The notes beneath the pieces were generated by a model, which had not been told where the DNA came from, did not search any database, and saw nothing but the letters and a program-made list of their open reading frames with translations. From Deltaproteobacteria bacterium RBG_13_61_14 (lineage in GTDB: Bacteria; RBG-13-61-14): 5,158 nucleotides of DNA. The translations under genes were made by a program, and so were the position numbers. Of the stretch, positions 1,681-1,737 are shown one piece after another. The stretch is taken from positions 47,103 to 52,260 of the forward strand of contig MGQK01000065.1 in assembly GCA_001797815.1 (NCBI GenBank), given 5' to 3'. How positions within the stretch are numbered: the stretch's first letter is position 1; every line of letters starts with the position of its first letter.

Positions 1681-1737
1681 GTAGTGGCGCGATTTATCGC
1701 GCCCGAAGTTGATGGGCGCAATAAATTGCGCCCCTAC
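1681..1737. repeat. Paired inverted REP-like hairpins (BIME-like element)
   Basis: Two hairpins face each other around a 9-bp spacer (1705-1713). The left half (1681-1704) starts with GTAG and contains GGCGCGA/TCGCGCC. The right half, read on the minus strand from 1737 to 1714, also starts with GTAG and contains GGGCGCAAT/ATTGCGCCC. The two 24-base halves agree at 21 positions. Two of the three differences are paired (G-C in one hairpin, A-T in the other), so both stems stay intact. An outer GTAG followed by an imperfect palindrome is the pattern of REP elements recognised by RAYT transposases. The element fills most of the gap between the zinc-ribbon and hydrolase-like genes and overlaps the zinc-ribbon stop codon (1734-1736). 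It could also affect mRNA stability or read-through. Confidence 0.8.

Follow-up and report, generated by a model that had tools for sequence, protein, structure and literature searches.

A GTAG-class REP doublet in Deltaproteobacteria bacterium RBG_13_61_14 and a probable REPIN population carried mainly by a promoter-spaced miniature transposon

The 5,158-nucleotide stretch of the Deltaproteobacteria bacterium RBG_13_61_14 genome analysed here, which we call the "window", carries at positions 1681-1737 an element that is very probably a GTAG-class REPIN, made of two inverted copies of GTAG-GGGCGC(G/A)AT-NN-AT(C/T)GCGCCC and dispersed by a RAYT, within a population borne largely by a MITE that has a separate transposase. 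Taken alone, the element would be a further member of a known REPIN kind; the population is a variant, mainly the core of a promoter-spaced MITE. The family is present in high copy, is biased towards extragenic DNA, is arranged in doublets whose paired positions covary, and is linked to RAYT genes in other bacteria. Its MITE-borne doublets have 10-bp duplications and lie at a fixed distance from promoter-like sequences.

Read in order, positions 1681-1737 consist of GTAGTGGCGCGATTTATCGCGCCC GAAGTTGAT GGGCGCAATAAATTGCGCCCCTAC, that is, two 24-nt GTAG-headed palindromes set head to head, with GTAG outward and a 9-nt linker between them. The left REP arm (1681-1704, + strand), which we term "G-type", is a GTAG head followed by TGGCGCGAT/TT/ATCGCGCCC and forms a hairpin with an 8-bp stem and a 2-nt loop, its basal T.C being unpaired. 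The linker occupies 1705-1713. The right, "A-type" arm (1714-1737, - strand; in full GTAGGGGCGCAATTTATTGCGCCC on that strand) is GTAG followed by GGGCGCAAT/TT/ATTGCGCCC and forms a hairpin with a 9-bp stem and a 2-nt loop. The GTAG head, short palindromic stem and small loop by which GTAG-class REPs are recognised are thus all present. An earlier note on this DNA had described two inverted hairpins with GTAG at their outer edges, and sequence, folding and the recovery of 51 such doublets against 0 in a control confirm this. The same note was right that, of the three differences separating the two arms, two preserve base pairing. The arms differ at positions 5 (T/G), 11 (G/A) and 18 (C/T); because positions 11 and 18 pair in the hairpin, these two differences amount to one compensated pair (G-C to A-T), while the third, at position 5, is a T in the left arm that unpairs the base of its stem, which is thereby 8 bp long compared with 9 bp in the right arm. 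As a single strand, the whole doublet can also form one long hairpin, whose folding energy is -19.6 kcal/mol for DNA (z -6.7, a value equalled by 0 of 200 shuffles) and -35.3 kcal/mol for RNA from the - strand (z -8.1). The G/A arm difference introduces a mismatch and a wobble into this long two-arm hairpin and leaves each single-arm hairpin intact.

Several counts show that the element is repeated throughout the window's genome (4.74 Mb in 132 contigs, ~95% complete). BLAST returned 42 places and 77 first-look candidates. A half-site pattern with up to 3 mismatches matched 141+146 times, compared with 39+34 for the reversed-pattern control, bearing out the high copy number for which the earlier note had proposed a search. 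At no more than 1 mismatch there were 72+75 = 147 matches and 0 in the control, and a two-arm pattern recovered 51 intact doublets, again with a control of 0; these 147 half-sites and 51 doublets, set against controls of 0, indicate that this is not a chance palindrome. The outcome that the earlier note had named as fatal to its reading, only one or two copies and no RAYT gene, is far from what the genome holds, since 51 doublets and RAYT genes are both present. Of 49 doublets scored for location, 41 avoid predicted genes altogether, 2 touch the edge of one and 6 are internal, so that 43/49 are extragenic, as the earlier note had expected; the gene calls came from a home-made codon-usage caller trained on the fetched loci, which are 81% coding. 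BIMEs join a REP and an inverted REP by a linker and are frequently arrayed in tandem alongside other motifs; the doublets here are inverted pairs and in that respect BIME-like. As in REPINs, inverted doublets are over-represented (51 vs 0) and able to fold (z -6.7 and -8.1). High copy number, doublet structure and extragenic bias together lead us to class the window element as a GTAG-class REP doublet, or REPIN.

The two arm types are nearly always joined to each other. Heterotypic doublets, with one G-type and one A-type arm, account for 46 of 48, where 23.5 were expected and the maximum in 20,000 permutations was 36; as many of these doublets share their descent within the MITE, independent events are fewer than the permutation implies. 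The window element has thus inherited the difference between its halves as a trait of the family. In other genomes, 30 doublets picked by one G-type arm include 18 that are homotypic and 8 of the G/A type. When 22 arm types from this and other genomes were compared, 98% of cells were paired, with changes on both sides in 7 of 9 pairs; 0 of 500 shuffles scored as high, and sliding the partner by 1-3 columns reduced pairing to 33-48%. This covariation indicates that the family as a whole maintains the single-arm hairpin. It is support rather than proof, since a REP-like appearance guided the choice of arms and arms related to one another do not count independently. The suggestion in the earlier note of selection on the folded form is therefore upheld in part: paired positions do covary across the family, but the G-C/A-T difference on which it was based is family-wide (46/48) and not private to the window copy.

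The proposed tie to RAYT transposases likewise stands in part, since the doublets are REP/BIME-like, inverted and GTAG-out, and RAYT genes bearing the same palindrome occur in other genomes but were not found in this one. Twenty Y1_Tnp (PF01797) loci were found in the window's genome. Two of these, L045 and L048, scored 107.9 and 91.8 bits, above the NCBIfam cut-off of 80 for REP-associated tyrosine transposases, and L047, L049 and L050 are close to L048. None of the 20 loci, in an assembly that is ~95% complete, is flanked by the doublet palindrome, so that the flanked RAYT gene suggested in the earlier note did not materialise here; RAYTs such as L045 and L048 are instead bracketed by other palindromes. 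Those at L045 (GTAGCCCGCCCTTG..CAAGGGTGGG) make up another REP family of this genome, and those at L047/L048 (GTGGTGCGGGTGCCC..ACCCGCAAC) and L049/L050 (CGCGGGTG- and CGCGCCTG-types) are unlike the window palindrome. An IS200-type TnpA, L031, was considered as a partner and rejected, the one GTAGGGGCGG-like sequence nearby being judged unrelated. Most of the loci L032-L046, about a dozen, encode Y1_Tnp proteins of ~320 aa that are extended at the C-terminus; these are multi-copy in one genome and have no adjoining GTAG palindromes. Searches of the genome with PF01797 and directly with proteins did not find the cognate RAYT clade (best match 26% identity, in the L048 clade). As the assembly is interrupted at repeats, with some RAYT loci falling at N runs or contig ends, this absence is weak evidence. 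The cognate RAYT may by now have been lost from the genome, or may be unassembled in it.

Elsewhere, the exact 24-mer GTAGGGGCGCGATTYATCGCGCCC occurs in at least 117 stretches from many phyla. Its hosts include Gallionella, Deltaproteobacteria, Armatimonadetes, Poribacteria, Omnitrophota and Chloroflexi, and further Acidobacteria, Gemmatimonadetes, Bacteroidales and Oscillospiraceae, among others. Many of these records are metagenome bins, and single ones could be misbinned; the spread rests on their number and on the complete HdN1 genome. The family was absent from two other genomes of the same phylum. A lineage-specific family, as the earlier note had supposed, is thus ruled out by the cross-phylum scan. 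RAYT genes flanked by the window palindrome, the arrangement of a REPtron (RAYT-associated REP), were found in several other bacteria. They belong to a RAYT clade different from those of the window's genome, and the palindrome they carry is exactly this one. In gamma proteobacterium HdN1 (L215) and Myxococcales Hm464_bin50 (L130) it flanks the RAYT; in Deltaproteobacteria FR_14 (L134) it overlaps the 3' end of the RAYT gene; and genome G033 has decayed copies (L220, L227) with the same G/A arm pairing. Members of this RAYT clade in genomes G056 and G026 have sister palindromes in which GTAG-GGGC is kept and the inner stem is varied. A putative signature of the clade is RRSIRLKxYDYSQ...VMPNHxHG...WQRNYYEHIIR. 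REP palindromes also occur in frame within RAYT genes (L215:2793-2846, L227:258-335, L049:1670-1770, L050:1440-1495). They take up a similar position each time, after the HUH motif and before the tyrosine helix (e.g. VGAQFNAP..GAMNRAPT), and the genes come from several phyla and two RAYT clades. Studies of TnpA_REP provide the basis for RAYT action on folded single-stranded DNA (PMC8266576, PMC3116915), and by analogy a RAYT (HUH/Y1) would act here on the folded single strand, cutting it by the GTAG head and so dispersing the doublet.

In the window, the doublet lies between two genes predicted by a self-trained gene caller. Upstream is a zinc-ribbon protein gene (1734-2441, - strand; Zn_ribbon_3 and DZR matches), whose TAG stop codon (1734-1736) is part of the right arm's GTAG head (1734-1737). 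Downstream is a gene for a 212-aa protein (1021-1659, - strand; weak ATC_hydrolase match) that starts 21 nt past the left arm; as it is on the same strand, the doublet sits between two co-directional genes. An orthologue of the 212-aa gene in genome G001 is 74% identical. An empty site was sought there and not found, the G001 stretch having no zinc-ribbon gene and its contig ending within the orthologue. A second, different palindrome (GCGCGGGTTTTCCAACCCGCGC, 996-1017, with GGAGTG before it) resembles the palindromes that bracket the RAYT genes L047/L048; it lies just upstream of the start of a SAF-domain gene and was judged, by inspection only, to fall outside the doublet family. An altronate/galactarate dehydratase is split here into two adjacent genes, one for the SAF domain (698-970) and one for the second and C-terminal domains (1-696).

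We infer that the window copy is a plain REPIN insertion between these genes and that the upstream gene takes its stop codon from the GTAG of this insertion; in mRNA the doublet is predicted to form a strong intercistronic hairpin. The position at a co-directional junction, the overlap with a stop codon and the RNA fold (z -8.1) would also suit a non-mobile regulator, such as a terminator, attenuator or mRNA stabiliser, selected at an operon junction. This explanation is very improbable, however, as the same sequence is found at ~50 unrelated loci, promoter regions included, and in many phyla; in addition, no T run follows the hairpin and an Rfam search with the element matched no relevant family.

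When the doublets were aligned with their flanks, most were found to share sequence past the GTAG heads. The shared sequence defines a MITE with the consensus CTTGCCCACCCTCATTTTTCCGGGAACCGGGG-doublet-GAAGGCCGAAAATATGCGGTGCGGTCAAAAAATGAGGGTGGGCAAG, mostly 137-138 bp long, with ~20-bp terminal inverted repeats (TIRs) and ends CTTGCCCACCC...GGGTGGGCAAG; examples are L016:1455-1592, L021:1455-1590, L027:1455-1592, L277 and L278. The TIR pattern matched 84 times genome-wide and 4 times in the control. Both TIRs are present in 36 of 49 doublets, leaving 13, the window copy among them, without a pair, though the end pattern is loose and two or three doublets could change sides. Most copies in the genome derive from the MITE that contains the doublet (36/49). 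The 10-bp flanks of 35 MITEs were identical in 17 cases, matched at 9/10 or better in 23 and at 8/10 or better in 27, whereas mismatched left/right pairings gave 0 at 8 or better; since these repeats differ from copy to copy, they are target duplications. At two loci, L056:1392-1615 and L242, the doublets have a GTGAT-type arm and are set in a different TIR-like context, AACTGGTTTCATAAC..GTTATGAAACCAGTT.

The window copy might itself be a MITE core whose TIRs have been lost, in which case a MITE transposase, and never a RAYT, would have placed it. The 36 of 49 doublets that are MITE cores share its arm types and its G-type/A-type pairing, as such a history would predict. Yet the 75 bp to the left and to the right of 1681-1737 contain no TIR, and the linker GAAGTTGAT differs from the TTGCCGGGACT-type linkers of MITE-borne doublets and from the MITE consensus. 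Twelve further doublets without paired TIRs have mostly unrelated linkers and flanks, and bare doublets of the same palindrome occur in other genomes, where no such TIR pair was seen. We regard TIR loss as improbable; the lack of paired TIRs suggests instead that the window copy originated in the manner of RAYT-dispersed REPINs rather than on the MITE.

MITE insertions were spaced with respect to promoter-like sequences. TTGACA (at least 5/6), a sigma70-like -35 box, occurs in 22 of 35 MITEs at 12-14 bp from one end, nearly always at exactly 13 bp, compared with a mean of 0.81 and a maximum of 3 at other offsets, a post-hoc statistic because the pattern was found after the flanks had been inspected. 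The -35 box is on the right of the MITE in 15 cases and on the left in 7. Among the 28 MITEs that have TTGACA at 4/6 or better, 25 also have a -10-like hexamer (at least 4/6) at a spacing of 15-19 bp, mostly 17, where 7.0 would be expected. The -35/-10 spacers differ among copies, indicating that the promoters are independent targets outside the element. The base before TTGACA is usually C, so that the target is CTTGAC and shares CTTG with the end of the TIR; the transposase may read this tetranucleotide instead of the promoter, which would leave the -10 enrichment unexplained.

A DDE-type transposase separate from the RAYT probably amplified the MITE copies, with a preference for DNA just upstream of promoters. 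The MITE TIR is not found at the IS4-type DDE genes of this genome (PF01609, 3 loci), none of which is an autonomous partner, nor was it found in foreign loci with the window palindrome, in viral contigs or in plasmids. We give an even chance to the fuller proposal that a DDE-type miniature transposon spreads the REP doublets as its core and finds its targets by the sigma70 promoter, in either orientation, cutting at ~3 and 13 bp upstream of the -35 box (a 10-bp stagger). This would give bacteria a counterpart to promoter-guided integration, the REPIN being a passenger or a functional core. The spacing could also reflect selection and not targeting, if only copies directly upstream of promoters persist or if the TIR serves as an operator. 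Survivors outside genes should in any event be found close to promoters, and both orientations occur; tolerated positions would spread, however, and the offset is almost always exactly 13 bp. We regard selection as the less likely reading.

The element resembles several known systems, each with differences. The survey of GTAG superfamily REPs by Di Nocera et al. 2013 (PMC3733652) describes 24 families with a GTAG head, a 9-bp stem and a 2-nt loop, which are mostly head-to-head dimers, are extragenic, and within a family have alternative complementary residues in the stem. All of these features are shared by the present family. Its exact palindrome is found in more phyla than the survey lists, its dimers nearly always combine two arm subtypes, and no RAYT of its own was found in the genome. 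REPINs (Bertels and Rainey 2011, PMC3116915) likewise are inverted REP doublets that form one hairpin with a variable spacer; here, two arm subtypes place a mismatch and a wobble in the long hairpin, and most copies are inside a TIR element with target duplications. Group 3 of TnpA_REP/RAYT (Corneloup et al. 2021, PMC8266576) shares the short perfect palindrome with GTAG and, in other bacteria, the adjoining RAYT-type genes; no RAYT of the cognate clade was found in the window's genome. Prokaryote MITEs, as treated in a review (PMC10969869), have a comparable size (~138 bp), TIRs, target duplications and extragenic location, whereas the REPIN core and the exact 13-bp spacing to -35 boxes are particular to this element; no mention of REPINs was found in a search of that review. 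The limited literature that we searched yielded no report of REPINs inside MITEs or of insertion spaced from the -35 box.

REPINs are held to be spread by RAYTs, and here is a large REPIN population without a detectable cognate RAYT. A MITE with its own ends and target duplications that carries REPINs represents a second route for REP amplification. The identical palindrome found across phyla ties one RAYT clade to one palindrome class. The exact spacing from the -35 box would give a clear bacterial example of promoter-guided insertion and, if true, would let the MITE serve directly as a promoter marker in a phylum that is poorly sampled.
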